From a virus: a stretch of DNA of 43,336 nt. Positions 421 through 41,015 of this stretch are shown here, piece by piece; the first letter of the stretch is position 1; each line of letters begins with the position of its first letter. The DNA is taken from positions 1-43,336 of the IMG/VR virus record IMGVR_UViG_3300010389_000034. One strand, 5' to 3'. A program made the translations under genes and the position numbers. The notes below the pieces were generated by a model. That model was not told the origin of the DNA. It saw only the letters and a list, made by a program, of their open reading frames with translations, and ran no database searches.

Positions 421-735
421 TTATAAACTGCCGTTACGAGCCTGATTTACCAGTTGCTCTAATTGTGTTTGGTTTAGTGGGTCGGCTGGCTTGTCTTTTC
501 GCTTTGACTTAAAAGTCAGTTGAATATTGTTGTAAACAATCGAACCCGGAACTGTTTGCATCACTCCACAATTGTTTAAAAACTCCCCAAAAGGTGGGCA
601 GTCCTGTTCAACATTCAGCTCTACATCTTCGACTTTTGAAGCCTTTACACATTGAATCATTTGCTCAAGTGCCTCGATTACTTGCTTTTTACACGCCTTC
701 TGTTTCTTCTTTTCGCTGATGCCAATTGCCGTCAT
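421..735 (-). CDS. Hypothetical protein, 104 aa
   Basis: Unknown function. The ATG at 735 overlaps the stop of the preceding gene (TGATG) and follows AGGGGGAG; an in-frame GTG one codon earlier is less likely. The N-terminus is very Lys-rich (EKKKQKACKKQ). A Cys- and Glu-containing helical part follows, then a possible beta segment (GSIVYNNIQLTFKSK). No membrane segment or signal peptide is visible. Confidence 0.65.
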   Translation of the reverse strand: MTAIGISEKKKQKACKKQVIEALEQMIQCVKASKVEDVELNVEQDCPPFGEFLNNCGVMQTVPGSIVYNNIQLTFKSKRKDKPADPLNQTQLEQLVNQARNGSL

Positions 736-1085
736 CACTCCCCCTTATCCTTAAACCACCACACCACAAACCACTCTATGAGGCTGGGAAGTATCCACCA
801 GAGGATGACCTGCCATGTGATGAAGCTGTATCCGCTTCTCTGTTTCGCCAGTTCTGAACGCACTTCACGCCGCACATTGCGACGAAATCGTTTTTGGTCT
901 TCGATGTCTGCATACTTACGGGCCGCCTTGATAGCGAGTCCGAGTATCTGAGATTGTTCTGAAGCGTATCGCCCCGCTGGGATTTCATCTTTAGCCGCAG
1001 AACACATCCTGATGTATTGGTCATTCTTCAGCGCTCTCTCATAGAGTCCATGAGGGTCGAGCGTTGGTTGTTTCTTCTCTATCAT
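735..1085 (-). CDS. C-terminally membrane-anchored hypothetical protein
   Basis: About 116 residues. The ATG at 1085 overlaps the previous stop (TAATG), which is better than an in-frame GTG seven codons upstream. A soluble, highly charged part (KRFRRNVRREVRSELAKQR) precedes one Trp-rich hydrophobic segment near the C-terminus (ITWQVILWWILPSLIEWFVV). A basic stretch just before the segment suggests the N-terminus stays in the cytoplasm. Given its place behind the lysis genes, a role at the membrane during lysis is possible but unproven. Confidence 0.6.
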   Translation of the reverse strand: MIEKKQPTLDPHGLYERALKNDQYIRMCSAAKDEIPAGRYASEQSQILGLAIKAARKYADIEDQKRFRRNVRREVRSELAKQRSGYSFITWQVILWWILPSLIEWFVVWWFKDKGE

Positions 1086-1378
1086 TACAGCCCCATTTTC
1101 TCCCACGGAATGAACGGATCAGCCCGCCCCGGTAATTGAGCAATATCAACCTTTACCCCCTTCACACAGATAATCAGACCGTTGATCGCGCCATTGAATA
1201 CAAACCAAGACGCAACCGGCTTTTTACCCATGAACGTTAGATGTAGATCACCCCCAATCTGATTGATTGTGAAATCCAATTCGCCGCCGCTTGGATGCCT
1301 GATGATGTAGTCGCCTACCTTGATATCTTCGCCTTTGAGCAGGCCCGTAAAATGATTGACTATCTCTGCTGGAGTCAT
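1085..1378 (-). CDS. Hypothetical protein, 97 aa
   Basis: Unknown function. The ATG overlaps the stop of the thioredoxin gene (ATGA), which indicates translational coupling. A short helix (PAEIVNHFTGLLKG) is followed by several likely beta strands (GDYIIRHP, ELDFTINQIGGDLHLTF, SWFVFNG, GLIICVKGVKVDI). This suggests a small beta-rich domain. No signal peptide is visible. Confidence 0.65.
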   Translation of the reverse strand: MTPAEIVNHFTGLLKGEDIKVGDYIIRHPSGGELDFTINQIGGDLHLTFMGKKPVASWFVFNGAINGLIICVKGVKVDIAQLPGRADPFIPWEKMGL

Positions 1379-1851
1379 TCGCCTGTCTCCTGATAACGGT
1401 TCCAGAAATCAGCCATCTCGACCGATCCCAGATAGCCTGTGCGTGCAATCTCGCTGCCATCCGGCCTGACCATAACAAACACAGGCACGAACGTTACGCC
1501 GTATTTCCGCACCAGATCGAGGTTCTGGTCGTAGTCGATATATTGGATTTCCGCGCTACTGTTCCCGCCGATATTCCACCCTGACGCCTGCAATGTTGGC
1601 ACTTCGTCACGCTTCCAGATCGAACACGGACCGCACCAAGTAGCGGTAAACATCAACATTCTGTTCTGTGGGATTGCCTTGACTGGCTTTGCTTCCGGCT
1701 TGCATTGGCAGTTCTCGCACTGGCAGGGAGTAACGCCTTTACAATCGCAGGGTTTTGCCTCTATTGGCTTGTCAGCAGCGAACATACTCCACTCCCGGCA
1801 ATAACCAACAGAGGATACAAAACACGCGATTATCAGAACTGTGTACCTCAT
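1375..1851 (-). CDS. Secreted thioredoxin-like protein
   Basis: A thiol-disulfide oxidoreductase of the thioredoxin fold. The active site WCGPC is present, and so is the cis-proline region (VTFVPVFVM). The ATG at 1851 overlaps the stop of the protease gene (ATGA) and exposes a clean signal peptide (MRYTVLIIACFVSSVGYC); an in-frame GTG at 1866 would spoil it. A Cys-rich linker (CDCKGVTPCQCENCQC) joins the signal peptide to the thioredoxin domain. The product should act outside the cytoplasmic membrane. Its coupling to a cysteine protease suggests it could keep that enzyme's thiol reduced or attack disulfides in the host envelope; that is inference. The peptide EWSMFA after the signal is also the C-terminus of the protease. 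Confidence 0.85.
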   Translation of the reverse strand: MRYTVLIIACFVSSVGYCREWSMFAADKPIEAKPCDCKGVTPCQCENCQCKPEAKPVKAIPQNRMLMFTATWCGPCSIWKRDEVPTLQASGWNIGGNSSAEIQYIDYDQNLDLVRKYGVTFVPVFVMVRPDGSEIARTGYLGSVEMADFWNRYQETGE

Positions 1852-2600
1852 GCGAACATACTCCACTCGTATTCACGCGGCTTGATTTCTTCCATGTCAG
1901 TCAGTCCGATTGCGACAGTGTAGTTATCCCTCAACTTCTGGCTCATCTCGCGCTCAGTCCATGTGAAATAACCGTTATCGCCCCAACTCGTACCCCATGA
2001 ATTAGCGACCTTGAAAGAGCTTCCCTCAGTCTCGACGATTGCGACAGCATGACCACCGCCGCCCCATCTCACGCCGATATTGATCCCACCCATACCGCCG
2101 TCAAGCCAGTTTCGCACGTCGTCAACTGTCTCCATGCGTCTTGCTGTTTTGAGTCGATAAGGTTTCGCCGCTTCGTATTGAGCCTGAGAGATTGTGTATG
2201 TGTAGCGGGTAGGATATGGGTAAAGTTCTTCAGGACAGATTCCACGATTCTTTGCCAGTTCTGCACCACCGCTGATCGTGCTCCCCTGGTCGCCTCTAAT
2301 GCCGTCAATGTGTTGCGTTCCGATATATGCAAACCAGCGTGAAAGCTGTGTGATATCGCCTTTGCTGGCGTTGTAATACGCTATCTCGCAGACCGTTGAG
2401 AGTGCGTTTCCTTGGCAGGAACCAAACCCATTTTGATCCTCAATGCGTAGCCATTCAGAAGGCTTTGTCAGCACATCCTGAATCGGTTGGTAATCTCCAT
2501 AAGTGAAAGGCGTACCAACCTCAAGAGAGTCAATCCAAGCCTGATTTTCATCATCAATCAGCCAGCCCAGCTTCTTGCCATCGGGAACCAGATCAGCCAT
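1848..2600 (-). CDS. Papain-like (C1 family) cysteine protease
   Basis: A 250-residue peptidase of the papain clan. The oxyanion Gln56 and nucleophile Cys62 lie in QNGFGSCQGNA, the catalytic His184 in GGGGHAVAIV, and Asn200 in VANSWGTSWGDNGYF, so the triad is complete. There is no signal peptide and no long propeptide. It lies directly behind holin-like membrane proteins and a lipoprotein, where lambda-type phages carry the endolysin, and I find no lysozyme, amidase or transglycosylase in the window. It may therefore be the lytic enzyme, or a protease that opens a proteinaceous envelope layer. The start follows GGAGG and overlaps the previous gene. Confidence 0.88.
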   Translation of the reverse strand: MADLVPDGKKLGWLIDDENQAWIDSLEVGTPFTYGDYQPIQDVLTKPSEWLRIEDQNGFGSCQGNALSTVCEIAYYNASKGDITQLSRWFAYIGTQHIDGIRGDQGSTISGGAELAKNRGICPEELYPYPTRYTYTISQAQYEAAKPYRLKTARRMETVDDVRNWLDGGMGGINIGVRWGGGGHAVAIVETEGSSFKVANSWGTSWGDNGYFTWTEREMSQKLRDNYTVAIGLTDMEEIKPREYEWSMFA

Positions 2601-3009
2601 TAGCGGCCTCCAGTCCCTTGATGATCTCGTTCAGCGTGTAAATCATCTCGCTTGAATCTGTAATCGGCTTAAATGTCTTAATCTGCCATTGGTCGTATGA
2701 TTTCCAGCGTGTAGCTGCTGTTGAGTCACCAGCGAAGACGCCTTTGACGCTCTCCAGAAAATCCTGATTGATTCGGTCGGCATCCCATCGCAAAGCACCC
2801 GACTTAGATACAGTCAACTTCATGGCACCAATCAACCGTGCTAATTCTTCCGGCTTATACTCGGAATCTTTAACAGCTTGATACGCTTCCAGAGCCACCC
2901 CTTGCAGGTCTGGGACCACTGGCCCCGGTGGTTTTGGCGTGTCTCCCCCGTTTGGGTCGATGTAACAACCACCCAGCAGCAGAACAGAAAGCAGCAACAG
3001 ACTACGCAT
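2593..3009 (-). CDS. Lipoprotein, possible outer spanin
   Basis: The N-terminus MRSLLLLSVLLLGGC is a lipoprotein signal with lipobox L-G-G-C (Cys15). A proline-rich stretch follows (PKPPGPVVPD), then about 110 helical, charged residues. A proline-rich lipoprotein encoded next to holin-like genes and a TM/coiled-coil protein fits an outer-membrane spanin subunit of the Rz1 type, although it is longer than most Rz1 proteins. It could equally be an unrelated phage lipoprotein. It overlaps both neighbours by 8 bases. Confidence 0.7.
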   Translation of the reverse strand: MRSLLLLSVLLLGGCYIDPNGGDTPKPPGPVVPDLQGVALEAYQAVKDSEYKPEELARLIGAMKLTVSKSGALRWDADRINQDFLESVKGVFAGDSTAATRWKSYDQWQIKTFKPITDSSEMIYTLNEIIKGLEAANG

Positions 3010-3340
3010 CCGGTTTGGTTTCCTTGTTGATCACCATCGCAGTGATGGTATTCAGAGTTTCCTCTGCCTGCTCGTAATCCTTACAGGAGACTGTCAGATG
3101 CTTAACCGCTGCCATGTCATCTTCGAACGTGCTCGCCGGCTCAACCGCTCCCCCTGTGGACTTGGCAGCGTATCCGACACCACCAAGCCCAGCGAGGAGA
3201 GAGAGAACTGCCTGAGCTAATACAGCGATGTTCGAAGTGTCCATGTTCAACGCCGCATTGAGCACATAGCCACCGTTCGCAACGGCACCCGCGCCAGCAA
3301 TCGCAGCAATCCAGGGGCACCACGCTTTAAGGTTTTGCAT
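3002..3340 (-). CDS. Holin-like protein with two membrane segments
   Basis: About 112 residues from the ATG at 3340, which follows GGGG; a TTG ten codons earlier is less likely. Two hydrophobic, Gly/Ala-rich segments are seen (WIAAIAGAGAVANGGYVL and IAVLAQAVLSLLAGLGGVG). An acidic, soluble C-terminal tail of about 50 residues follows, containing one Cys. Size, topology and position directly before the lipoprotein and protease suggest a holin or antiholin. No family-specific motif proves it. Confidence 0.6.
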   Translation of the reverse strand: MQNLKAWCPWIAAIAGAGAVANGGYVLNAALNMDTSNIAVLAQAVLSLLAGLGGVGYAAKSTGGAVEPASTFEDDMAAVKHLTVSCKDYEQAEETLNTITAMVINKETKPDA

Positions 3341-3560
3341 TGTCTTTGCCCCATCGACGTAATGCGTCAATCACATATCCGGCACCCAGACCGACGAAAG
3401 CCGCGACCATCTGATTGTCGAAGTGCATCACCTGCACCTTTTCCATGATCGCCACGCCGCCAACGGTCAGACCGTAAATGACAATATTGGTCAACTGCTC
3501 TGCTGTGTCGGAGTGAATCCACTCCCATTTGCCGGATACGACTTTTTTTACCTCTGTCAT
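3327..3560 (-). CDS. Holin-like protein with two hydrophobic segments
   Basis: 77 residues from the ATG at 3560, chosen because GAGGTGG lies just upstream; the open frame extends further but without a ribosome site. Hydrophobic segments are LTNIVIYGLTVGGVAIMEKV and MVAAFVGLGAGYVIDALRRW, with a basic C-terminus (RRWGKDNAKP). It is a second candidate holin or antiholin in the lysis cassette and overlaps the next gene by 14 bases. Confidence 0.55.
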   Translation of the reverse strand: MTEVKKVVSGKWEWIHSDTAEQLTNIVIYGLTVGGVAIMEKVQVMHFDNQMVAAFVGLGAGYVIDALRRWGKDNAKP

Positions 3561-3587
3561 CTCACCACCTCGTAAGGGTTTATATGT

Positions 3588-3646
3588 GCCTGCTCGCTTT
3601 AAGGTTCTCGAATGAGACACACCGGGCATTAAAGCCCTGAGCAGGC
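3588..3646 (-). other. Long imperfect inverted repeat between lysis genes
   Basis: Arms GCCTGCTC (3588-3595) and GAGCAGGC (3639-3646) are continued inward by GCTTTAA (3596-3602) and TTAAAGC (3629-3635), with a 3-base bulge. That makes a 15-bp stem around a 26-base loop. It begins at the stop codon of the spanin-like gene and ends 27 bases before the next start. There is no T-run after it on the minus strand, so it is more likely an mRNA processing, stability or translation-control structure than a simple terminator. Confidence 0.6.
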
Positions 3647-3859
3647 TTATTTCGTTCTCTCAAGTATCCTGATTCGGTTTTCGTGGTCGTTCTGGACCTT
3701 CTCCGCAGTCTCAAACCGTCTTAATGCTGCTTTATTCTGTTCAAGTAGTTGCGTTCCGATTTGCTCCATACGAAACATCCACGCTGTAAAAGCTGGGACA
3801 CCGACAACCACCAGACCAACTGTGATTCCAACGAAGATTTTCTTGAAAATATCTATCAC
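3647..3859 (-). CDS. TM plus coiled-coil protein, possible inner spanin
   Basis: 70 residues. One N-terminal membrane segment (IFVGITVGLVVVGVPAFTAW) is followed by a charged helix with coiled-coil character (MEQIGTQLLEQNKAALRRFETAEKVQNDHENRIRILE). This is the layout of an i-spanin (Rz), although it is much shorter than lambda Rz, and it resembles XhlA-like phage proteins in reverse. It is the first gene of the lysis region and starts only 21 bases after the T-run of the terminator at 3880-3913. Confidence 0.6.
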   Translation of the reverse strand: MIDIFKKIFVGITVGLVVVGVPAFTAWMFRMEQIGTQLLEQNKAALRRFETAEKVQNDHENRIRILERTK

Positions 3860-8065: not shown

Positions 8066-8157
8066 CGTTTCTCCCTTAATTCAAAGCGCAATGTGTCCTT
8101 ACCCCGCTCTTATTTTCAGTCGCAGCCATTCCGCCCGTAGGCTCCCTCACGACTCAA

Positions 8158-8277
8158 TCAGTTCCATTGCACCCGCCACGGCATAGTCACGCCGTTATTC
8201 ATGTTTTTCACACATACGGCTTTGGGTGTCTGATTTGTTCGCATGACCTTTGACGCCTCAACGTACTCGGTAGCCAT
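8158..8277 (-). CDS. Possible 39-aa protein
   Basis: ATG at 8277 opens MATEYVEASKVMRTNQTPKA and ends at a TGA at 8158. The composition is protein-like and it fills much of the 240-base gap between the helicase and the DnaB-N-like gene. The ribosome site is weak. Further on in the same gap, ATG 8129 could encode a 17-aa peptide (stop 8076). Nothing else is visible there. Confidence 0.35.
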   Translation of the reverse strand: MATEYVEASKVMRTNQTPKAVCVKNMNNGVTMPWRVQWN

Positions 8278-8306
8278 GCCGTTTAACCGGGTGCCCTATC
8301 TGTGGG

Positions 8307-9833
8307 CTATCGCAGTAGTTCTCTCGGAACGTCTTTAACTTTCCGCTTCCAGTCGAAATCATCCTTCGGCATGAATGGCAGATCCCTTGGTGGTCTGTAT
8401 CCATGCTCCCGAAAAAAGAACGCTTCCGCCTGGCTGAATGTCTTGCCGGAGTTTTTGAAGCGGTAATACATGCTCGTCCATTGCTTCTCCGTGTCGCTTC
8501 GTTCCTGCCGGTGTTTCTTCTTCGTGATTCGTCCGGTCTGCTTCTTCAGTTCCCCGTTTTCCTGTACGACCATCCGAACAGATTTTGAATGCTTATGGTT
8601 GCAGCTAACGCAAACCGGCCCAGTCATCCTCACAGCACCGCAGGCAGGACACACGATAGGCTCAGGCTCTTTCCCTTCGCTCATCTGGTCTAATCTGGTG
8701 TTCGTAATCGCGGCGTCTGAGAGCTTCCACAGGCTCTGCCAGTCGCGGTTCATGTTCGGGCTTCCGTGTCTCCAGAAGTTGCCGCCGTGGTCCTGTATAA
8801 TCACCTTGTCGAGACTCTCATGATTCCGCAGCACTCGCCCGACCGTCTGTAAATAGCTCAGCAGTGAACCAATCGGAGTCGCCAGAATGCAGTGGAACAA
8901 TTCCGGTATGTCAATTCCCTCACGCAACACGAACCGATTGCAAATTACGTCGATGCGTCCGGCCCGCAGATCGTCAACCACTTCCCGCCGTTTCTCTGGG
9001 GATGACTGGTATTCCTCACCGTCCCGATACACGTTGTTTCCGTCGATGTGTGCGGCTCTGATGCCCTGTTCCTCTAACTGATTCACAAACCATACTGATT
9101 CCTTCACGCCGGGAGCGAACAGGATCGTAGGCAGCCTGTCAGGGTTCAGACGGTTGTAATAATCAACCACTCGCCCGACGATGGATTGTGTCCAGATCTT
9201 GTAAACCCGTTCTGCTATCTGGAATTCCCCGGTTTTGTTTCGCTTGACCTTCTTTAAATCCGGTTCGTCTGGTGCGTAAACATGGCAGGGGAGATGCGCC
9301 CCGCAGTCCCGCAGGTCTCGATTGGTTCCGGCTACGATCAGCCTGTTATACAGATCCCCGATTCCCAGCGGAGTCGCTGTCAGACCGATGTTGATTGCCC
9401 CTTGTTCCTCATGGATCTTGAATATCTTGCCCGCTGTCGCCGCCTTCTGCATGTGGGCCTCATCCCAGAGAACCAGCTTCGCATGATGCAGGTTGCGTTG
9501 TTTCTTTGTGAACACCCTGGAACGCTCTGTCGGCACGCTGGCGATCTGGATTTTCGCGTCGAGGTTTTCATGCTGCCACATCTCAGCGGCCCGCACGCCG
9601 TAATCTATGCCGTATGCGTCCATCGAATTCATGAGCTGTTCGATCAGCATGTTACGGGTCGCGTACAGAACCACAGACCAATCCCGCTGTGCTGCGTAGT
9701 CCATCATTTCGAACATGCAACGCGACTTCCCGCCACCTGTGGGACTCGTGAAACAGAGCTTGGTTTCCCCCGCTTCTATTGCGCTGAATGTCTCCTGTAA
9801 GCCTCTTGCTTGATGTGGCCAGAGTGCGCTCAT
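8307..9833 (-). CDS. SF2 (DEAD/DEAH-type) helicase with zinc finger
   Basis: About 508 residues from the ATG at 9833, which overlaps the previous stop (ATGA) and follows GGAGGGCC; an ATG 15 bases upstream has no ribosome site. Counting from that upstream ATG, motifs are SPTGGGKS (35-42), DEAH (129-132), TAT (157-159), NRFVLREGIDIP, and QTVGRVLR (334-341). A four-Cys zinc knuckle (CPAC, CVSC) and a basic region follow. It is a RecQ/UvsW-like DNA or RNA translocase and is the only obvious replicative-type helicase beside SSB, so a role in replication or recombination is likely. Confidence 0.88.
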   Translation of the reverse strand: MSALWPHQARGLQETFSAIEAGETKLCFTSPTGGGKSRCMFEMMDYAAQRDWSVVLYATRNMLIEQLMNSMDAYGIDYGVRAAEMWQHENLDAKIQIASVPTERSRVFTKKQRNLHHAKLVLWDEAHMQKAATAGKIFKIHEEQGAINIGLTATPLGIGDLYNRLIVAGTNRDLRDCGAHLPCHVYAPDEPDLKKVKRNKTGEFQIAERVYKIWTQSIVGRVVDYYNRLNPDRLPTILFAPGVKESVWFVNQLEEQGIRAAHIDGNNVYRDGEEYQSSPEKRREVVDDLRAGRIDVICNRFVLREGIDIPELFHCILATPIGSLLSYLQTVGRVLRNHESLDKVIIQDHGGNFWRHGSPNMNRDWQSLWKLSDAAITNTRLDQMSEGKEPEPIVCPACGAVRMTGPVCVSCNHKHSKSVRMVVQENGELKKQTGRITKKKHRQERSDTEKQWTSMYYRFKNSGKTFSQAEAFFFREHGYRPPRDLPFMPKDDFDWKRKVKDVPRELLR

Positions 9834-10228
9834 TCGCTGGCCCTCCATTTACCAAACTTCTCAGAAAGCTGTTTCAGTATTTCCATGCACTCATTTCTAG
9901 TTTTTAAGTCACCGGTATAGTTTCCGATTTCATCAAACTTTCTTGCGAGTTCGTAAAGCACATCCTGTATACTTTCTTTTGAGTAATCGCAGCCGACTTT
10001 TCTTAGACTGGTTGCATCTAGCAGTTTGACCCCTCTAACTGGTTTATTTTTCGTTCCAGACGGAAGCCTTACCCACTCTGCACGTCCAGCCTTTATCAGT
10101 TCAATGATTGCTTTTTCTGTTTCGTGTGCAGTCTTAAACATCTTGGAATCTCTCTGGGCAACACGAAGTGATACTTCGCCACCCTTGCTGTCGATAAACT
10201 CAATAAGTCCATCCAGATCTATAATCAC
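9830..10228 (-). CDS. Hypothetical protein, possible DNA-binding
   Basis: 132 residues. The start is GTG, overlapping the parB stop (GTGA). Residues 5-65 contain short helices and a strand pair (GRAEWVRLPSG, VRGVKLLD), compatible with a winged-helix domain. The rest is charged and helical. It lies between a ParB-like gene and a helicase gene. Confidence 0.6.
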   Translation of the reverse strand: MIIDLDGLIEFIDSKGGEVSLRVAQRDSKMFKTAHETEKAIIELIKAGRAEWVRLPSGTKNKPVRGVKLLDATSLRKVGCDYSKESIQDVLYELARKFDEIGNYTGDLKTRNECMEILKQLSEKFGKWRASE

Positions 10229-11007
10229 CCTTCAGCCCTCCATGTCTTCAAATCAGCATCCAACGTCTTTACCCTGGAGACACAAACCGCGTGACCTTTT
10301 TTACTCTTGACGAATCCTGAACGCTCATCGATTTTGCGTACCAGTTTCCCGATTAAATCGTCCAGGGATTTCTCATCGAATTTGGTTCGCTGTTCACTAT
10401 CCTTTTTCGGCTCGGAAATCTTCTTTGCAGCCCCGCTGACCGACTTGTTGAGCGTCTGCCGTAATTCCTCTGCCTGCTCGGTTTCTCCCTCAGCTTCCAG
10501 CTCGTCAATCACCTTGACGACTTCAGCCGCCTTGTCTGCCGTTCTGCCCTTCATTCCGACCTTCGCCGCTGCTAAATCGCTAGACCTTCCAGATTCTTGA
10601 CCCTTGTGAAAATTTTCACTAGGGTCTGTTGGCTTTCCGGTTTTCATCCGAATTGCGGCCCGTTCTGCCTCGATTTCCTTGAGGAATTGGAACTCCCTGG
10701 CCTTGACTTCAGTGCTCTTTTCTCGCTGCCGGTTCGCCTCGATTATCGCCTCTCTGATGTCCAGTTCATCGGTCAAGTCAAACCGGATTAGTACAGGTAC
10801 TTCTTTCAGCCCTAAAATCTTCGCTGACTGGTTCCGAGTATGCCCGGAAATGATCACGTTATCGCTAGTGATTACGAGTGGTGTGATGATCCCCTTTTTG
10901 CGGATTGACTCGATCACTTCTTCGTTTTTCTTGTCCCCGTAAATCTCGATATTCATCAAATGGTTTTTGAGATTGTTAGGATCTACGTGGTTGTAAATGT
11001 TCTTCAT
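10225..11007 (-). CDS. ParB-like protein
   Basis: 260 residues. An N-terminal ParB/Srx domain (about 15-100) shows EEVIESIRKKGIITPLVI and the phosphate-binding SGHTRNQSAK (54-63). A helix-turn-helix-like region around SSDLAAAKVGMKGRTADKAAEVV follows, then a charged helical C-terminus. No ParA-like ATPase is seen in the window, so it is more likely a phage DNA-binding or nuclease-like ParB homologue than half of a partition system. ATGA overlap couples it to the upstream gene. Confidence 0.85.
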   Translation of the reverse strand: MKNIYNHVDPNNLKNHLMNIEIYGDKKNEEVIESIRKKGIITPLVITSDNVIISGHTRNQSAKILGLKEVPVLIRFDLTDELDIREAIIEANRQREKSTEVKAREFQFLKEIEAERAAIRMKTGKPTDPSENFHKGQESGRSSDLAAAKVGMKGRTADKAAEVVKVIDELEAEGETEQAEELRQTLNKSVSGAAKKISEPKKDSEQRTKFDEKSLDDLIGKLVRKIDERSGFVKSKKGHAVCVSRVKTLDADLKTWRAEG

Positions 11008-11234
11008 AAGTTCAATCCTCCCTCATGTTGTTCATCAAGGCTTTTGCACATTGCCTCTGCCTGTTTAATGTCGTCGCAGATTATGAATTTCCCGAATGGG
11101 ACCAACTGTTTTTCGTCTCCAATATCTTTGACTATTGCCCTTTCGTTTTCTTCGTTCTCCACTTTTTCGAATCCTGTTAAGTAGCCGGGATACCACCAGC
11201 CGTCAGTTGCTACGAATGCACATGGATTGTTCAT
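11004..11234 (-). CDS. Hypothetical protein, 76 aa
   Basis: Short beta-rich sequence (CAFVATDGWWYPGYLTGFEKV, KQLVPFGKFIICDD) with a helical end (IKQAEAMCKSLDEQ). It could be a small SH3-like barrel, but no family is recognised. It is coupled by ATGA overlaps to the annealing-protein gene and to parB. Confidence 0.6.
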   Translation of the reverse strand: MNNPCAFVATDGWWYPGYLTGFEKVENEENERAIVKDIGDEKQLVPFGKFIICDDIKQAEAMCKSLDEQHEGGLNL

Positions 11235-11725
11235 TTCTCGCTCGCTTCCTTAATTGCTTTGACTGCTGCTGCGTTGGGTTTCCACCAGAATGTTTTCTTT
11301 TCCTTCGTCGTCACTCCCTTGTATGCCCCGTATTCGAATCGCTCCAGAACTTCGGCTTTCATTGGGGGGAGCGAATAGAGGTAGCGTCCGATTCCCCATT
11401 GCACCGCCGCCCGTTTCATGGCATCCGAGAGACCGCCTTTAAGGGCTTCGATCTGGGTATCCTTTGCGCCGTCCCATTTGGTTACGCTCCCGACGCCCTC
11501 AATGCTGATTGTGATCCCGCAGAGCTGGCCCCCTTTCCAGTCGCGGAATTCGTTCCACCAGAACACCGGCGTGCAAACCTCATCTAAGCGGTCCTGTATC
11601 GCTCGTGCCGTTACGTAAGGTGCAATCATGGCCTGAATCCCGTCGTACTCCATTACTCGCAGGGTACGCCATTCCAGATCCTCAAATGCAAACGGTTTCG
11701 CCAGTGCTTTGAAATCAATACTCAT
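11231..11725 (-). CDS. Rad52/Rad22-type single-strand annealing protein
   Basis: 164 residues with the family hallmarks. LEWRTLRV near the N-terminus is followed by VTARAIQDRLDEVCTPVFWWNEF, GGQLCGITISIEGVGSVTKWDGA, and the highly conserved ALKGGLSDAMKRAAVQWGIGRYLY. It anneals complementary strands and would work with the adjacent exonuclease as a two-component recombinase (SynExo). TAATG couples it to the exonuclease gene. Confidence 0.9.
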   Translation of the reverse strand: MSIDFKALAKPFAFEDLEWRTLRVMEYDGIQAMIAPYVTARAIQDRLDEVCTPVFWWNEFRDWKGGQLCGITISIEGVGSVTKWDGAKDTQIEALKGGLSDAMKRAAVQWGIGRYLYSLPPMKAEVLERFEYGAYKGVTTKEKKTFWWKPNAAAVKAIKEASEK

Positions 11726-12555
11726 TAAATCACCTCTCCTAATGCGTCGTTATCTGATAACCATTTCATTCCCGGTGTGTATTCCTGAATGTCTGCTGCC
11801 AGTGGTTCAGGCCATACGTTCGACTCGTGACATTTCGCAATGTCTTCCAGTGCTTTCCGAACATCCCGCCGACCGACTTCCCGCACATCGTCAGATATCT
11901 TGTGAACCGCACAGCGGTATGGTTCCTGGTTCTCTACTGCGATATACAGGAACGGAATATCTGCGTCAGTCTCTAGATAATCCTGAACGCCCAACTCATA
12001 GAACGCTGCTGAATGGTGGTAGCCGTATTCATTCACGCCCTGATAAAAGAACTTTTCAGGTGCTGCGTTTCGCGTGGTCTTCAGGTCGCAAATCGCGTCA
12101 GACTCTAGCCACATATCGAGCCGGATCTTGCAATCTAACCCCATGTATTCAAACTGAATTGTCTGCTCACTTCGCACCGTCTGTTCCAGTAAGGCAACCG
12201 CCAGCGGATTAGATTCAAACGACTGTTTCATGAGAGTGAGTTTCCGTATGTCGGAATCTCCAACCGGCTCCAGCCCTTCCGCTTCGCATTCGGCTTTATA
12301 TTCCTGATATGCTTTTAACCGTTTGTTGCCTTCGTATGGTTCAGCCCAGAGTTGTTTTCCCTCAATCACCCATGCGTGAAAGAGTCGGCCAATCTGAAAC
12401 GCTGGCTTGTCGGTGTCCGGTTCGAACTGATTGAGGACATACTTTTGATAGTACGCCCGCGCACCGTACCGAATGAAATACTTAAGCGCCGTCGAACGTA
12501 TCCCCGGTAACAGGTTGTATTCTTCCTCGCTCATTGTTTCTGGTGGTAATGTCAC
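11725..12555 (-). CDS. RecE-like PD-(D/E)xK exonuclease
   Basis: 276 residues. It begins with the family-type N-terminus SEEEYNLLPGIRSTALKYF, then FQIGRLFHAWVI. The nuclease core has Glu136, Asp147 in CKIRLDMW, and D157-L-K159 in CDLKTT; the helix YHHSAAFYELG follows. This matches the RecE / exodeoxyribonuclease VIII-type domain that resects double-strand ends 5' to 3'. The start is GTG (12555), overlapping the previous stop; an ATG seven codons later is possible. It pairs with the Rad52-like protein downstream. Confidence 0.85.
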   Translation of the reverse strand: MTLPPETMSEEEYNLLPGIRSTALKYFIRYGARAYYQKYVLNQFEPDTDKPAFQIGRLFHAWVIEGKQLWAEPYEGNKRLKAYQEYKAECEAEGLEPVGDSDIRKLTLMKQSFESNPLAVALLEQTVRSEQTIQFEYMGLDCKIRLDMWLESDAICDLKTTRNAAPEKFFYQGVNEYGYHHSAAFYELGVQDYLETDADIPFLYIAVENQEPYRCAVHKISDDVREVGRRDVRKALEDIAKCHESNVWPEPLAADIQEYTPGMKWLSDNDALGEVI

Positions 12556-12791
12556 ACGCCCCCCAATCTATAAACAGCGACATCATGATTGCTCTCTGTT
12601 AAGTCCAGGTAGTACGGCTGGAGTTCGACTTGCACGAATGCGGGAAACTCGTCTACGTCCAGCGTTGATATCTCCAGTCGATCCGGCGGAAGGTGTGAAG
12701 ACTTCAGGGACGTTGTCGATCCGTCTGGATGCCGGTCGTTCTCTGGCTCTGTTCCCTTCCAGTACGCATCTCTGAGTAGTTCGCGTATCAT
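12552..12791 (-). CDS. Hypothetical protein, 79 aa
   Basis: Unknown function. Acidic centre (RLEISTLDVDEFPAFVQVELQPYYLDLTE) suggesting a few beta strands. Overlaps both neighbours by 4 bases (ATGA upstream, GTGA downstream), so it belongs to the recombination operon. Confidence 0.6.
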   Translation of the reverse strand: MIRELLRDAYWKGTEPENDRHPDGSTTSLKSSHLPPDRLEISTLDVDEFPAFVQVELQPYYLDLTESNHDVAVYRLGGV

Positions 12792-13060
12792 GAGAGGTTA
12801 TGCTCCTTCATAAATGCTTGCAGGGCTTCATATCGCTCCTTAACCATTGCGGCAGCAGTCTCGACAACATCTTCAATATCTGACAAGCGGAATAGTTCGT
12901 CTTCCCATGCCTCCGCCGCTTCCAGGTCATCGATTAGAATTGCATATTCGTTACCTACATCTCCCTGGTAGAGAACGCAATCGATGAACGCATCCTTGAT
13001 TTGACCTGATTGATTTAAGTACCAGACGTTTTCACTGTCTTTAAATTTAGGATCGCTCAT
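12788..13060 (-). CDS. Acidic hypothetical protein, 90 aa
   Basis: Very acidic, with SENVWYLNQSGQIKDAFIDCVLYQ (strands) and a helical half (LEAAEAWEDELFRLSDIEDVVETAAAMVKERYEAL). A small, negatively charged phage protein of this kind could be a DNA mimic, but that is only a suggestion from charge. TAATG and ATGA overlaps link it to its neighbours. Confidence 0.6.
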   Translation of the reverse strand: MSDPKFKDSENVWYLNQSGQIKDAFIDCVLYQGDVGNEYAILIDDLEAAEAWEDELFRLSDIEDVVETAAAMVKERYEALQAFMKEHNLS

Positions 13061-18200: not shown

Positions 18201-18280
18201 TTAATCGTCCTCACTGCAAAAGCCACGAAACACGCACACACAAACGCCATGCAGCCGAATACCAGGTATGGGTTAAGCAT
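18197..18280 (-). CDS. 27-aa single-pass membrane peptide
   Basis: ATG at 18280 lies inside the end of csrA, after AGGCGAGAG. It encodes one membrane span (residues 5-22, LVFGCMAFVCACFVAFAV) with a short basic end. Its TGA overlaps the ATG of the helicase gene (ATGA). The nested start, the clean hydrophobic span and the stop/start overlap argue for a real gene. It could simply couple translation of csrA to the helicase or be a small membrane effector. Confidence 0.55.
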   Translation of the reverse strand: MLNPYLVFGCMAFVCACFVAFAVRTIK

Positions 18281-18536
18281 CTCTCGCCTCCTCATCCGCC
18301 TGCTCATTCAGTTCCTGCAACATTTCTTGCTCAAAGAAAAGTTCGTCTTCGCGTTTCATTGCCTGCTCCATTCGCTCCTTCTGGATCGCCTCAAACACTT
18401 CCCGACGATGTACCGCAATGTCTGTCGGTGCTGTCACGCCTAAGCGAACCTTGTCGCCTCGAATGTCAATCACCTGAATTACGATGTTGTCACCCATGAT
18501 CAGTTCCTCGTTTAGCTTCCGTGTTAAAACTAGCAC
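18273..18536 (-). CDS. csrA: CsrA/RsmA-like RNA-binding regulator
   Basis: 87 residues. The start is GTG, giving MLVLTRKLNEELIMGDNI; GVTAPTDIAVHRREVFEAI follows. The RNA-contacting Leu4 and Arg44 are conserved. A 25-residue acidic helical tail extends beyond the usual length of about 61. CsrA dimers bind GGA motifs in mRNA leaders and block or stabilise translation. In a phage it could reprogramme host mRNAs or time phage genes. A GGA-bearing hairpin lies in its own leader. Confidence 0.95.
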   Translation of the reverse strand: MLVLTRKLNEELIMGDNIVIQVIDIRGDKVRLGVTAPTDIAVHRREVFEAIQKERMEQAMKREDELFFEQEMLQELNEQADEEARDA

Positions 18537-19607: not shown

Positions 19608-20273
19608 CTAATCTGTTAATGCCAGACGCTTCATGTCTTCCATCGCGTCTTCGTTGCTATCAAAAAACCGGACTGGAGAAATCTCGTAACCACTCGCCTT
19701 GTAAATCTGCTGCGCGGCGAACAGGCATGATGTTTTCGATTCCAGTTCCTTTCCCGCGTCTCCAGCAAGAGTAGTCACCCATCCGGCCCGGCAATGAGTA
19801 GTGTCGCATGTGTGCCAAACACCCATATCCAGCGCATCATCATCCACAGACACTGCGTCGTATATTTTCTTGTGAATATTCTCGATTACCGGGATTTCCA
19901 ATATCTCTTTTTTGCCGAAGCAGTCGGAGCAGTCGGAGCAGTCGGAGCAGCGGGAGCAGTCGGAGCAGCCGGAGCAGCCGAAGCAGTCGGAGCAGTCGGA
20001 GCAGTCGAAGCAGCCGGAGCAGCGGGAGCAGTCGGAGCAGTCGGAGCAGTCGAAGCAGCCGGAGCAGCGGGAGCAGTCGGAGCAGTCGGAGCAGTCGGAG
20101 CAGCCGGAGCAGCGGGAGCAGTCGGAGCAGTCGGAGCAGTCGGAGCAGTCTTCCAACGTCTTTAATGCGTCGGTCGCTTTCCCCTCGCTTCCCCACCGAA
20201 GAACCGAAGCACGGTTATTCTTTTCATCATACACCCATGTTTTACCGTCAATAACTCTTGTCTCGTATTTCAT
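19608..20273 (-). CDS. Cys tripeptide-repeat protein
   Basis: 221 residues. The first 42 residues are a small beta domain (TRVIDGKTWVYDEKNN). Residues 43-120 are 26 consecutive Cys-x-x tripeptides, mostly CSD with CSR, CSG and CFD/CFG, arranged in a higher order of five. A C-terminal domain follows with WHTCDTTHCRAGWVTTLAGDAGKELE and a helical end. In related phage proteins, as I recall, this C-terminal domain comes after pentapeptide-like repeats. The Cys row could bind metal, form disulfides, or build a repetitive solenoid. GGGGAGA precedes the ATG. Function unknown. Confidence 0.8.
   Translation of the reverse strand: MKYETRVIDGKTWVYDEKNNRASVLRWGSEGKATDALKTLEDCSDCSDCSDCSRCSGCSDCSDCSDCSRCSGCFDCSDCSDCSRCSGCFDCSDCSDCFGCSGCSDCSRCSDCSDCSDCFGKKEILEIPVIENIHKKIYDAVSVDDDALDMGVWHTCDTTHCRAGWVTTLAGDAGKELESKTSCLFAAQQIYKASGYEISPVRFFDSNEDAMEDMKRLALTD
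19914..20147 (-). repeat. 9-bp tandem repeat with 45-bp higher order
   Basis: 26 units of a 9-base motif (minus strand TGCTCCGAC type) encode the Cys tripeptides. Blocks of five units (CSD CSD CSD CSR CSG) occur twice almost unchanged and twice with CF substitutions; a last block of six differs. This points to unequal crossover of 45-base blocks in addition to slippage. Confidence 0.9.
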
Positions 20274-20991: not shown

Positions 20992-22176
20992 TTACTGAGT
21001 ATCGGCTTGCGACTCGCTGCCCTGCTCCTGTTTCTTGTCTTCTGGCGGGTGTAGACCATCTTGTAGACTTTTGGCCTTTGAAAACGCATCCCACAGAGCA
21101 TTCGTGGTCGTCTTGGCATTCTTCCCTACATAGTAGGCAAGCGTTGTTTTTATATCGGTATGACGCATCAGTTCCATGAGCTGTTGAGGCAGGATCAATT
21201 GCGCCCACCTCTCACCAAAAGACCGCCTGAGGTCATGAGCTGTAGCATATGACCCTTTGTCTGTATCAGAGATAACATTTGCCTTTGTGGCGATTCTCTT
21301 AACCAGACGGCCTGTGGTGTCGATCCTGGGTATCACGCCTCGAGTCCATTTGGTAACAGGCTGAAATACTCTACCTTTTTGATTCTTCACTTTTCGCAAC
21401 AATTGTTCGAACTCTGGAGCCATTGGTGTAATACGATCCTGATTCCCTTTCTCTGCTTCGGCCTGAATGCGGAAATAGAAGTGCTTTCCCATCTCGATTA
21501 CACAAAAGGGCCCTTCGTGCCACTTGAGTTCTATGGCTTCCCCGATCCGCAGACCTGACCACCAAAGACCCTCGAGAAAGAGTTTCCACTGGTCAACGTG
21601 ATCCTCATCTATTACCTTTGAGATACACTTCACGATTCGTTCAAACTCTTCCTTCGTGATAGGCCTGCCCTTCATCATCTTTGATTTTCTGGCCCGCTTC
21701 GGAGGCTTTATCTTAGGCACACTGGCAATCATTCCCATCTCATGGGCCCAGTTCAAAGCAGCTTTAATGTATGCCAGATTCCCCTTGATTGTTGCCTCTG
21801 TTCTCCCTTTCCCCCTGAGCTTGGCAACATAGTGATTGATTCTGATTGATGTGACAGTAGAAAGGTTTTTGACTGAGATAACATCATGAAAACCATCCAG
21901 CACGTTTTCAGCTTTGTAGGCTCCCTTTTCAGATAGGCCTGCAAGATGCTCCTCAGTATACCTCTTGCGAAAGTCTTCCCAGTTAACGCCAGCATCAGCA
22001 ACGTAGGTGCCTGAGTTCAATCGCTCCTCAAGTTTGGCGGCATACGTCAAGGCCTTGGATTCTTTAGTTTCTCCGGTAGTCTCATACTTACGCCTGCCGG
22101 ATATTGGATCAGTCCACCTTGCAATGTAATGCTCACGGTCCTTTTGTTTGACGATGATAACCTTAATCAGTGCCAT
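20992..22176 (-). CDS. int: Tyrosine recombinase (phage integrase)
   Basis: 394 residues. An N-terminal arm/SAM-like domain (1-160) precedes the catalytic domain. The catalytic set is complete: Arg210 in SGLRIGEAIEL, Lys243 in the beta-hairpin region, His314-x-x-Arg317 (HDLRR), His339 (MRHT) and the nucleophile Tyr348 in LAYYV. It should integrate the phage at a host tRNA-Thr gene, whose 3' half lies right after the gene. The C-terminal coding end contains one of the 19-bp repeats. The start follows CAGGGGAG. Confidence 0.95.
   Translation of the reverse strand: MALIKVIIVKQKDREHYIARWTDPISGRRKYETTGETKESKALTYAAKLEERLNSGTYVADAGVNWEDFRKRYTEEHLAGLSEKGAYKAENVLDGFHDVISVKNLSTVTSIRINHYVAKLRGKGRTEATIKGNLAYIKAALNWAHEMGMIASVPKIKPPKRARKSKMMKGRPITKEEFERIVKCISKVIDEDHVDQWKLFLEGLWWSGLRIGEAIELKWHEGPFCVIEMGKHFYFRIQAEAEKGNQDRITPMAPEFEQLLRKVKNQKGRVFQPVTKWTRGVIPRIDTTGRLVKRIATKANVISDTDKGSYATAHDLRRSFGERWAQLILPQQLMELMRHTDIKTTLAYYVGKNAKTTTNALWDAFSKAKSLQDGLHPPEDKKQEQGSESQADTQ
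21050..21068 (+). repeat. 19-bp attP direct repeat, right copy
   Basis: Exact copy of 20812-20830, here within the last codons of the integrase gene (SLQDGLH on the coding strand). The two copies flank the tRNA-derived core. Confidence 0.75.
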
Positions 22177-24988: not shown

Positions 24989-25473
24989 TATTCACACTCA
25001 AACATGGTTATGAGCCTTCGGCAGCTGGAGTCCGTAACGATATCCAATCTGACTGGCTCTCGATTCGTGAGATTTAAAAACTTCCTGATGTCAATCGGGT
25101 CCTGATGGTGTCCGGGACATGAACCCGCAGCCCACATATAAGGCACGCTGATGATAGCAACTTTGCAGGAACTGAATATTTTATCAACGAACTCTCTCAG
25201 ATAGTCCGCTTTGAAATGCTCGATTACCTGCAGGCAGGTGATTACGTCGGCTGTCAGGTCCAACTGCATCCAGTCGCCTTCGATGCATTCCACACCGCCC
25301 AGTTGCGGGAACTCCCGATTATTGACAGCGTATCGTTTTTCGAACTTGCCATACGTTACAACCAGAGTGTCAGCACATCCGACATCAATAATGGACTCGT
25401 GGTCGAGCTGCTCCAGCCACTCCCGCACAACGCGGTAATAGTTCAGATCTTTTCTGCCATCCCAGTAGTTCAT
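24988..25473 (-). CDS. SAM-methyltransferase-like protein
   Basis: 161 residues from the ATG at 25473 (ATGA overlap with the glycosyltransferase stop). It has a shortened class I fold: IIDVGCADT (28-36), CIEGDWMQLDLTADVITCLQVIEHF, then VAIISVPYMW. A longer frame upstream overlaps the glycosyltransferase and is rejected. The third part of motif I is altered (CADT rather than GxG), so it may be a weak or specialised enzyme. Confidence 0.75.
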   Translation of the reverse strand: MNYWDGRKDLNYYRVVREWLEQLDHESIIDVGCADTLVVTYGKFEKRYAVNNREFPQLGGVECIEGDWMQLDLTADVITCLQVIEHFKADYLREFVDKIFSSCKVAIISVPYMWAAGSCPGHHQDPIDIRKFLNLTNREPVRLDIVTDSSCRRLITMFECE

Positions 25474-26504
25474 GTATCTTCTTCCCGGTTCAAGAAATAA
25501 TCCCGAATGTCCTGGTGCAGCCCCGGCTTGTACGAGGCCCATTCCCACGCCCCGCTTTTCCCGATTTTAATATCGGAGATACAGAAATTGTGATTCCGCA
25601 GGATCTGCAGCCGATCCCCATACTGGCGTTTTTCGCGGGTGCCGTGGTACAGGTGATAGGCACCCCCTGAAACGCAACCGATGCGACCATTAATCAGCGG
25701 ATATTGTTTAGCCTTCCATGCATCGAAGTCAGCCGCAGGACGCTTCAGGCTGGAATATTGCTTCTCCACCCACTTCCGCTCTTTGACGAATGCAGCAACG
25801 GCATGACAGTCACCGCCGCCGATGATGTCTTTGTCATAGATTCCCCAGGGGATTGCCTCGCGTCTGGCTGCCCAGGCGAATCCCGGAGTGCCGAACATAT
25901 CCCCGTTCAAGCCGTTATTCCAGTTGTAGGCCCAGCTGTTTGTCTGGTTCGTGACCTTTCTATCTGGCCCGAGAAAATCAACCCGCTCATATAACTGCAC
26001 AATTGGGTACGATTCCAACAGTTTTTTTGTGTCTTCATACCAATTCGGATTCTGAAAGATGGCATCGGCATCAATCCACGCCACTGCATCGATATCAGCG
26101 GGGAGCGACTGAATCCCGATATTCAGCAGGCGTTCCTTTTGCCACATAAATGATTTTGTGAGATCACCAATAATTTTGTGCTGAGCATCGAATTCAAACC
26201 GCCCGTCAAAGGACAGCTCCACCATCGTGACAGGAACGCCAATTTTATCCAGGTATTCATAGGCGTTTCGGACAGGGAGTTTGTAGCCGCAGGGGTTGAA
26301 GTGACAGGACACCACTGCCAGATTTTTGATCGGCGTGTATTGTGCTTCGGGGATCACTGGATCTGCGTTGCCCCAGCCTTCGCAAGTCGCGCGAGTCTTG
26401 ACCAGACGCCGGACCTCATCACCGTGCTTCCGGCAGAAGTAATTACGTTTGAATTCACAGGCTTCACAGAGTTGCTGTTTTGCTTCAGGTGTTAAATCAA
26501 TCAT
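25470..26504 (-). CDS. Glycosyltransferase-like protein with N-terminal Cys cluster
   Basis: 344 residues. Residues 13-41 carry four Cys (13, 16, 24, 41), a likely zinc site. The rest resembles a GT-A glycosyltransferase: NLAVVSCHFNPCGYKLPVRN, then the metal-binding AWIDADAIF (DAD 145-147) and a late AYHLYHGTREKRQYGDR. It should transfer a sugar to phage or host structures. The three-gene cassette with two methyltransferases at the end of the tail operon suggests decoration of the virion or receptor. Confidence 0.75.
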   Translation of the reverse strand: MIDLTPEAKQQLCEACEFKRNYFCRKHGDEVRRLVKTRATCEGWGNADPVIPEAQYTPIKNLAVVSCHFNPCGYKLPVRNAYEYLDKIGVPVTMVELSFDGRFEFDAQHKIIGDLTKSFMWQKERLLNIGIQSLPADIDAVAWIDADAIFQNPNWYEDTKKLLESYPIVQLYERVDFLGPDRKVTNQTNSWAYNWNNGLNGDMFGTPGFAWAARREAIPWGIYDKDIIGGGDCHAVAAFVKERKWVEKQYSSLKRPAADFDAWKAKQYPLINGRIGCVSGGAYHLYHGTREKRQYGDRLQILRNHNFCISDIKIGKSGAWEWASYKPGLHQDIRDYFLNREEDT

Positions 26505-27104: not shown

Positions 27105-27902
27105 CTATAAACTCGGAGTACCATCGCCGTTGTAGGATCGGCATTCGTTGACATCAGCCACCCAGCCCACGCCGGGGAACCATTGCGCTGTCCCAAATGA
27201 TCCCGCAGCAACCGCATCGTTGATCACACTGTCGTCACTGTCCCATTCTCCGATCAGAGGAATCGGGTATAACACTTCCGCATCTTCGCCAGAATCAGCC
27301 CATGTGGTCACGTAAACATGCACCTTAAAGACTGCTGTTTCAATGTGGTCTACTTCAAACTGATCGAACGTCCGACCTGCCAGATCGTTTATAAATTCAA
27401 TCTGCCACCGTCCCGGCCAGAGAGAGACCTTGACGTTTCCCGGTCCGATATTTGACAGGGCTTCCAGTTTCTCTCTCAGGTATGCTTCTGTAAGAGTGGC
27501 AGCTGCAAGGCTGATATCTTCCGTGGACTGCTCATCCAGAATTAACTTGACGGTGCCACTCACTGAGTCACCAATAAACGAAACCACCTGTTTATGGTTG
27601 CCGTTGGGATCGTATTTCAGGATGGAAATCTCCACCGGCGTTTCACCGTCCACCATTACCGGATATTCCTGCCCTGACCTCAGATCACCGTCTAAATCAT
27701 AGCTGTCAGACGCATACGTTCTCACTGTGTACGTCGAGTACGGAACGTGAGTGATAAACCGAATCGGCGTGCGATGGCCGTCTAGCTGCCCGTAGCTGGA
27801 CTTATTCGGCTTATTCCGTGCGGTCCGCCATTCTGCCACCATCTTTTTTAGATCGGCCCAGAACTTCGCGGTTCCCTCAAGAAATGAAAGCTCCTCTGTC
27901 AT
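27105..27902 (-). CDS. Tail protein with one IAYN-type module
   Basis: 265 residues. After a short helix (FWADLKKMVAEWRTAR), the middle contains GTVKLILDEQSTEDISLAAATLTEAYLREKLEALSNIGPGNVKV then WQIEFINDLAG. This is the same module repeated in the neighbouring 831-aa protein. The end has VYVTTWADSGED and an Asn/Gly-rich tail. ATGA-coupled to the upstream gene. Likely part of the tail fibre or tip. Confidence 0.65.
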   Translation of the reverse strand: MTEELSFLEGTAKFWADLKKMVAEWRTARNKPNKSSYGQLDGHRTPIRFITHVPYSTYTVRTYASDSYDLDGDLRSGQEYPVMVDGETPVEISILKYDPNGNHKQVVSFIGDSVSGTVKLILDEQSTEDISLAAATLTEAYLREKLEALSNIGPGNVKVSLWPGRWQIEFINDLAGRTFDQFEVDHIETAVFKVHVYVTTWADSGEDAEVLYPIPLIGEWDSDDSVINDAVAAGSFGTAQWFPGVGWVADVNECRSYNGDGTPSL

Positions 27903-30402: not shown

Positions 30403-31332
30403 CTATTTACGTGGTAAAACGTTGTGGTCTTCTTCGCGGAAATCGTTTCTGCGGATAATGTAAATGCTCGACGTATCCAATCCGCCGCGTTTCTTGTCCG
30501 GTTCCAGCACAATGTGTTTGCCGTTTTTGTCCAGATATTGTGGCTCGCTCGGGTAGTCTCCCGGCCCTATCGTGATACGCTTTTTGGTGTACGTAATCGG
30601 CGTCGATGGGTTTCCGAGAAACTTGTCTATTTTTATCTGATTATCTGATGGTGACTGCTCCAGGTAATGAAAACCTGTGCTTGGCTCGAACGTGTCGTGA
30701 GTATCTTGATCGTGCGTCAGTTCGTACTGCAGCGGGTAGTACCAGACCTTATTCTCCAGAATTCGGTTAGGTCGCTCCGATGCTCCCAGTAACAGCGTCC
30801 GTGGTTCATACGTAATATCTTCGATCTGCACTGAGGACTTATTGACTGACCCCGGCATGTAGTGGAACCAGTTCGGCACTGTGGCTACGTTTTTCTGAAC
30901 GCTGATATCCTGAATGGCCTTGAGTGTTGTTCCTACCTGAATATCACCGGCAGTATTGATCCTGATACGCCCCTTGCCATCACGGAACGTTTCCACTTCT
31001 TCCAGTCGGGTTCTGATATCAATAATCGCAGGACGTTTCAGCGGGTTCGGATCGTTGTTGGCATCGTCCGCGTTTGTATTCCACTCGACTTCGACCTTGT
31101 AGATTTTGGAAGCCCCCACCTGTGACAGCTTGACGCGAATCACCAGCGCAGCAGAGTTGACGTCGTGACGCTCCCCCAGCTTCGGGCATTTCTTGTACGA
31201 GAAAATATACATCGGGTCCGTGTTGACATCCTGCAGCGTTGCCCAGTAAAGGCGCACCAGCTTCGTTGTCGGTCCCTGTTCCATCTCGCCAGTCCAACCG
31301 TCAGCAACGGCCCAGTGTTCTACCTTCGCCAT
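30403..31332 (-). CDS. Minor tail protein after tape measure
   Basis: 309 residues, mostly beta, acidic, no membrane segment: VKLSQVGASKIYKVEVEWN, then RPAIIDIRTRLEEVETFRDGKGR. The position right behind the tape measure is that of distal tail or tail-tip baseplate proteins, but no family motif is recognised. TAATG-coupled to the tape-measure gene. Confidence 0.6.
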   Translation of the reverse strand: MAKVEHWAVADGWTGEMEQGPTTKLVRLYWATLQDVNTDPMYIFSYKKCPKLGERHDVNSAALVIRVKLSQVGASKIYKVEVEWNTNADDANNDPNPLKRPAIIDIRTRLEEVETFRDGKGRIRINTAGDIQVGTTLKAIQDISVQKNVATVPNWFHYMPGSVNKSSVQIEDITYEPRTLLLGASERPNRILENKVWYYPLQYELTHDQDTHDTFEPSTGFHYLEQSPSDNQIKIDKFLGNPSTPITYTKKRITIGPGDYPSEPQYLDKNGKHIVLEPDKKRGGLDTSSIYIIRRNDFREEDHNVLPRK

Positions 31333-40757: not shown

Positions 40758-41015
40758 TTACTTATTGGTCCTCCGCTTCGTAGATGGCTTTTGACTATGC
40801 GGCAAACGTGTTTCTAAATTGACATGATGAGTCTGGATAATCGGTTGTTCTGGCTTGAAATCCTGGCTCCAGGTATGCCCGCAGACATTGCACCTGAAAT
40901 ATTTTCGCAGCAGCGTATTCCCTTTCTTGTAAGAGGAATAACGCTCGCCTTTACCACCCCACTCGCCATGACAGGTAGGGCACTTCTCGTAATGCTTCAC
41001 ATCGTTACTCATCAT
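40758..41015 (-). CDS. Zinc-ribbon protein in packaging operon
   Basis: 85 residues with CPTC near 12 and CNVCGH near 42, plus WGGKGERYSSYKKGNTLLRKYFR between. A clear zinc ribbon with a basic tail. An insertion compared with lambda, between large terminase and gpW. It may bind DNA or RNA; no defined role. 4-base overlap with the terminase gene. Confidence 0.75.
   Translation of the reverse strand: MMSNDVKHYEKCPTCHGEWGGKGERYSSYKKGNTLLRKYFRCNVCGHTWSQDFKPEQPIIQTHHVNLETRLPHSQKPSTKRRTNK

Follow-up and report, generated by a model that had tools for sequence, protein, structure and literature searches.

A papain-like protease and a putatively exported thioredoxin in a candidate lysis cassette of a temperate siphovirus, probably of Planctomycetota

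The linear virus record IMGVR_UViG_3300010389_000034, whose full 43,336 bp are referred to here as the window, carries on its minus strand (3859-1375) a cassette of six genes that ends in a papain-like cysteine protease and a thioredoxin. We favour, at a probability of roughly 45%, the reading that this cassette serves a temperate Planctomycetota siphovirus as its lysis module, with the protease taking the place of an endolysin and acting together with the exported thioredoxin to open a disulfide-linked protein wall. The six genes are the following.

3859-3647, minus strand: protein of 70 aa with a GTG start, an N-terminal transmembrane segment and a coiled coil; candidate inner spanin or accessory lysis protein, by topology
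3560-3327, minus strand: membrane protein 1, 77 aa, with the Shine-Dalgarno sequence GAGGTGG before ATG 3560; first holin candidate, by hydrophobicity
3340-3002, minus strand: membrane protein 2, 112 aa from its ATG, with N-terminal hydrophobic segments and a cytosolic tail; second holin candidate, by topology
3009-2593, minus strand: lipoprotein, 138 aa, with a signal peptide and the lipobox LGGC
2600-1848, minus strand: papain-like cysteine protease, 250 aa, with the Shine-Dalgarno sequence GGAGG
1851-1375, minus strand: thioredoxin, 158 aa, with an N-terminal signal segment, a Cys-rich linker, CGPC and cis-Pro123

We prefer translation starts at ATG 3560 for membrane protein 1 and ATG 3340 for membrane protein 2, and take the lipoprotein to begin at 3009, the protease at 2600 and the thioredoxin at 1851. 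The open reading frame (ORF) of membrane protein 1 stays open upstream as far as ATG 3629, and the thioredoxin could instead begin at the GTG at 1866, its start in the ORF list. With these starts, successive genes overlap by 14 nt (membrane proteins 1 and 2), 8 nt (membrane protein 2 and lipoprotein), 8 nt (lipoprotein and protease) and 4 nt (protease and thioredoxin, ATGA), and the cassette is therefore translationally coupled from membrane protein 1 on. An earlier, sequence-only reading had described all six genes as consecutive and overlapping. All six exist, but the first is separated from the gene for membrane protein 1 by an 86-nt gap. A 17-bp direct repeat (1852-1868 and 1785-1801) also gives the C-terminus of the protease and the N-terminal region of the thioredoxin a common EWSMFA, and deletion of the 67-bp repeat unit would bring the two genes into one frame.

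Profile, fold and catalytic residues all identify the protease as an intact C1A-type enzyme, for which proteolysis is the predicted activity. Pfam Peptidase_C1 is matched above its gathering cut-off (7.7e-7; 29.8 versus 20.7 bits), and phmmer matches the protein to xylellain (1.8e-11). An AlphaFold2 model built on an alignment of nine homologues (predicted local distance difference test score, 79.7; predicted template modelling (TM) score, 0.82) has xylellain 3ois as its best Foldseek match (E 1.3e-11, TM 0.64), followed by papain and cathepsins. The catalytic residues Gln56, Cys62, His184 and Asn200 occur in order and are invariant among aligned relatives, which bears out the intact Cys/His/Asn triad of the sequence-only reading. 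GSCQG at the active site marks the subfamily to which the enzyme belongs. The protein shows no signal peptide, and Pfam gives no I29 propeptide match, just ~50 residues lying ahead of the active-site region. The lack of both features suggests that the protease would wait in the cytosol, as an endolysin does.

The thioredoxin exceeds the Pfam cut-offs for Thioredoxin_2 (2.9e-7; 31.2 versus 27 bits) and Thioredoxin (8.7e-7; 29.3 versus 23.5 bits). Its CGPC is the classical reducing motif, and C73, C76 and P123, the CxxC cysteines and the cis-Pro, are invariant in 12 aligned papain-linked thioredoxin homologues. Export of the protein is predicted from its N-terminal signal segment.

Conservation of the pair in other phages is central to the argument. 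IMG/VR, searched twice by pattern and once by profile, yielded C1 proteases at considerably more than 100 phage loci, and at many of them a secreted or membrane-anchored thioredoxin-fold protein (CxxC, cis-Pro) is encoded directly 3' of the protease. When a five-seed thioredoxin profile was run against the ORFs of ~200 loci, matches beyond the seeds and their close copies lay only directly behind papain genes (1e-7 at L159, 1e-6 at L196, and 0.002-0.02 at L161, L163, L160 and L167). A scan with the pattern WCxxC had indicated no thioredoxin beside papain genes, a result overturned by the profile search; the pattern was too strict. Thioredoxin-linked members, among them those of the window and of the outlying L196, are dispersed across the clade in the protease tree, a pattern suggestive of an ancestral pair with later loss in some branches. 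A complete planctomycete prophage (G199:C1, ~674-719 kb) has the same gene order as the window phage, running from replication genes and SSB through small membrane and secreted proteins, the papain gene, an overlapping thioredoxin gene and more small membrane proteins to the tail fibre, TerL, portal, head, tape measure and integrase. Its SSB is 77% identical to that of the window. The coupling of thioredoxin to protease proposed in the sequence-only reading is thus kept in relatives, this complete prophage included, and nothing in them points to a virion role for the protease.

The relatives also indicate a host phylum. For the GSCQG subfamily, a genome-contig scan of 84,980 bacterial and archaeal species gave four matches, all of them in Planctomycetota metagenome-assembled genomes (Planctomyces, Bythopirellula), and 392 Planctomycetota genomes, when searched, yielded more strong protease matches. 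The search for close relatives through the window protease alone found none, and the one through TerL found a single 30.8-kb fragment (G001) with neither a papain match nor a useful lysis region.

Some branches that lack the thioredoxin carry a second protease in the cassette, either a matrixin (L144/L171 and L175 by Pfam; L164 by its HExxHxxG motif) or a secreted trypsin-like enzyme (L131, identical to L165; L164; L169). None of the thioredoxin-bearing loci has one (Fisher p 0.04, computed on related, non-independent loci). The matrixins at L144:2768-3670 and L175:3155-4090 have an N-terminal PG_binding_1-like prodomain and the cysteine switch PRCGCPD, like the proforms of animal matrix metalloproteinases. 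The secreted Trypsin_2 genes at L131:7241-7918, L164:7632-8303 and L169:7194-7871 lie ~1.5 kb upstream of the papain gene and belong to one phage branch. At thioredoxin-less loci the gene that follows papain is often one for a small secreted protein bearing CxxGxCP-like cysteine motifs (L146:7154-7342, L162:8471-8839 and the post-papain genes of L155 and L158).

No conventional lytic enzyme accompanies the pair. The sequence-only reading saw no muramidase, amidase or transglycosylase. Pfam scans of 40 window proteins and six-frame searches with four families bear this out, and no endolysin fold was found among the proteins without an assigned function. In those six-frame searches, which covered 17 virus records including the window, SLT, Amidase_2 and Phage_lysozyme were matched in 0 of 17, and the only M23 match fell below the cut-off, within an open frame of 1,242 aa in a 172-kb phage. 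A Pfam scan of 86 proteins from the G199 prophage and G402 showed no hydrolase family among the best 25 of 66 families listed, beyond which weak matches could lie. Two further sets of 93 and 64 proteins (G199, G400, G402, G404, G406 and G407), with complete family lists, contained Peptidase_C1 and no hydrolase; the families absent from the relatives are amidase, lysozyme, transglycosylase, CHAP, NlpC/P60, M23 and M15. These negatives are as good as Pfam, and many small window ORFs were covered by the four-family six-frame searches only.

In the window, the protein with the transmembrane segment and coiled coil has a weak best PHROG match to an Rz-like spanin (E = 0.08; spanin matches, 0.08-0.09), and the PHROG search gave no holin match for the window membrane proteins. 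Among relatives, a 64-65-aa protein with a transmembrane segment and a coil is encoded after the papain or thioredoxin gene, and the PHROG holin phrog_9987 lies upstream of papain in the same cassette (8e-5 in L160; 0.0016 in L155). A helical lipoprotein or membrane-anchored protein precedes the protease in most clade loci checked, and the window lipoprotein occupies the same position, with weak similarity to this family (5e-4, 16-sequence set). A representative of the family is confidently predicted to form a three-helix bundle; the idea that the lipoprotein is an I29-type inhibitor or has a known fold was rejected, as no fold in the PDB matched.

On the favoured reading, lysis would begin with accumulation of the protease in the cytosol, as its missing signal peptide implies, while the thioredoxin and the lipoprotein, judging from their signal sequences and the lipobox, would be exported. 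At lysis time the small membrane proteins would permeabilise the inner membrane and so free the protease. The exported thioredoxin would reduce disulfides in wall proteins rich in Cys, YTV proteins for example, and may in a second role keep the catalytic cysteine of the protease reduced. The protease would then cleave the protein wall thus opened, together with linker proteins of the envelope, leading to the burst, and both enzymes would be needed for it.

The envelope of the presumed hosts may offer a suitable substrate. In R. baltica, the sacculus is a protein structure with disulfide bonds (PMC2754498). Cys-rich YTV wall proteins are confined to the Planctomycetales, many of which have lost peptidoglycan genes (PMC8567305). 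YTV proteins (PF07639) occur in all eight protease-carrying genomes and in 1 of 25 others of the phylum (Fisher p 6e-7).

Several considerations weigh against this reading. Phylogeny confounds the YTV association: the wall proteins and the protease may both simply mark the Planctomycetales, which leaves the association consistent, not probative. Planctomycete sacculi have been shown to contain peptidoglycan and are reported to be sensitive to lysozyme (PMC4432640), so that a peptidoglycan-cutting step would seem to be needed. Among the eight carrier host genomes, murG is matched in all and mraY lies above the cut-off in seven, and the hosts thus probably make peptidoglycan; the idea that they do without it is not supported. 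The phage probably meets protein and peptidoglycan both. The planctomycete host of the window phage, itself a probable assignment, comes by way of relatives, and the inner-spanin and holin labels in the window remain candidates drawn from topology. About half of the clade has no thioredoxin. Finally, Planctomyces chromosomes (L193, ~8100-12800; L194; L150; L148) carry a set of 2-TM (two-transmembrane-segment) gene, lipoprotein, papain and thioredoxin outside any obvious prophage. Between L193 and L194 the ratio of nonsynonymous to synonymous substitution rates (dN/dS) is ~0.05 for papain and 0.27 for thioredoxin, with the lipoprotein-papain-thioredoxin set intact and under purifying selection, so that a host function is possible. 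The sequence-only proposal of lysis by proteolysis and disulfide reduction in a host with a protein-rich envelope accordingly keeps the conserved coupling and the Planctomycetota relatives on its side, and has the retained murG and mraY and the lysozyme-sensitive sacculi against it.

The retained peptidoglycan genes suit an alternative that we regard as unlikely, in which the papain-like enzyme is an unusual endolysin cutting the peptide cross-links of peptidoglycan, with the thioredoxin serving in the periplasm just to maintain the enzyme's catalytic cysteine in its reduced state. Papain-fold phage endolysins do exist, in the CHAP and NlpC/P60 families (PMC10318531); a papain-family N5 domain occurs in mycobacteriophage LysA (PMC3314691); PeiW and PeiP of archaeal phages are cysteine endoisopeptidases that require a reducing agent (PMC4592898); and among the BFVD fold neighbours of the window enzyme are phage proteins that carry the labels 'Peptidoglycan binding-like' and 'N acetylmuramidase'. 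In sequence and fold, however, the enzyme is nearest to true C1A proteases (xylellain, papain, cathepsins). Pfam at E values up to 1 matches it to Peptidase_C1 and, below cut-off, Peptidase_C1_2, with no match to NlpC/P60, CHAP, C39 or C71, and finds no wall-binding domain. Moreover, C1 proteases in phages of other hosts adjoin a true lysin, GH25 in THSA-485A and M23 in Mufasa8, an arrangement that suggests a job different from peptidoglycan cutting.

That same arrangement, in which THSA-485A and Mufasa8 own both enzymes, lends some weight to another improbable account: protease and thioredoxin would be spanin-like lysis accessories that cut linker proteins and loosen the outer layer, while cleavage of peptidoglycan would fall to host autolysins or to a phage enzyme that has escaped recognition. 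Pfam leaves several large window proteins unmatched (27899-30394, 30403-31332 and 25470-26504), and the record is cut at both its left end and its TerS end, so a missing gene is possible. Even so, Pfam gives no hydrolase candidate in six further genomes, the complete prophage among them, and the six-frame searches of the 17 records are negative save for the sub-cut-off M23 match in the 172-kb phage.

Least credible is a non-lysis role as a host-derived or lysogenic-conversion envelope module (quality control, surface proteolysis, or defence against rivals or superinfecting phage), for which the selected, cross-species chromosomal copies and their neighbours, a COG2401-like ATPase and by eye a possible anti-phage deaminase ORF, speak, but against which stand the position of the phage sets with holin-like genes between replication genes and terminase, the protease without a signal peptide, and the upstream 2-TM, holin-like gene retained in the chromosomal copies, as expected of a domesticated lysis cassette. 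The Planctomyces set is possibly just that. At L193, L194 and L150 it is followed by the COG2401-like ATPase gene and an acetyltransferase-like gene, named by eye.

The rest of the window is organised as follows. Almost all genes lie on the minus strand, and the cassette sits at the far end of this array, ahead of the cut left end; coupling runs on past the thioredoxin into the two genes listed first. Gene content, which also includes portal, capsid, Rad52-like and SSB genes, is that of a temperate siphovirus.

1085-1378, minus strand: 97-aa protein with no assigned function, ATGA-coupled to the thioredoxin
735-1085, minus strand: 116-aa protein with a C-terminal transmembrane segment, tail-anchored by topology and position
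41012-42895: GpA-type TerL
31332-33359: tape measure
20992-22176: integrase

The idea that the 97-aa protein equals the C-terminal domain fused to chromosomal thioredoxins is not supported (hhalign probability 1.7%). No family match was found for the 116-aa protein in Pfam and PHROG, and the cassettes of relatives hold proteins built like it. Elsewhere, a 221-aa protein (19608-20273) without a Pfam family has numerous DCSDCSDCS-type cysteine repeats, a single 737-aa gene (36746-38959) joins a weak prohead-protease-like N-terminal part to a Phage_capsid_4 domain, and 18273-18536 encodes a CsrA-like regulator, identified by eye.

Several known systems share features with the cassette. Like the xylellain branch of C1A (PDB 3ois), the protease is free-standing and has the same fold and Gln-Cys-His-Asn site; it differs in its GSCQG motif, in the absence of a detected I29, in its phage cassette and in having planctomycete-only relatives in the genome collection. 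The compact operon of small membrane proteins, the signal-less cytosolic lytic enzyme and the small lipoprotein recall holin-endolysin-spanin cassettes, whereas here a protein protease is the one lytic enzyme that can be recognised, a secreted thioredoxin joins it, and glycan hydrolase, amidase and transglycosylase were not found. To our knowledge, tailed-phage endolysins cut peptidoglycan or its archaeal counterpart. The C1 proteins of Thermoanaerobacterium phage THSA-485A and Arthrobacter phage Mufasa8 likewise lie within a lysis module, but adjoin GH25 or M23, lack a thioredoxin, and share only ~22% identity with the window enzyme (E ~0.1). The N5 domain of mycobacteriophage LysA is a papain-family domain in a phage lysis enzyme as well, but as part of a multidomain endolysin with wall-binding parts (PMC3314691). 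The proposed system resembles PeiW and PeiP of methanogen phages in combining phage cysteine peptidases, a non-standard host wall and reducing conditions, although these pseudomurein endoisopeptidases belong to another peptidase family and have another substrate (PMC4592898). Their reductant requirement may serve as a working analogue for a thioredoxin-assisted protease. We know of no encoded thioredoxin partner for either enzyme.

More broadly, and more tentatively than for the window itself, a whole lineage of planctomycete phages may lyse without a peptidoglycan hydrolase, through coupled reduction of disulfides by the exported thioredoxin and proteolysis of a Cys-rich protein wall by holin-released papain and, in some relatives, by a matrixin or trypsin-like enzyme. 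The literature searched held no description of planctomycete phage lysis. If the reading is correct, a conserved lysis cassette that pairs a protein protease, as its recognisable lytic enzyme, with a secreted reductase would solve the problem of lysis in a different way. The window enzymes would serve as tools to open or dissect planctomycete envelopes, and the cassette would provide independent evolutionary evidence on whether the load-bearing wall of planctomycetes is protein, peptidoglycan or both.

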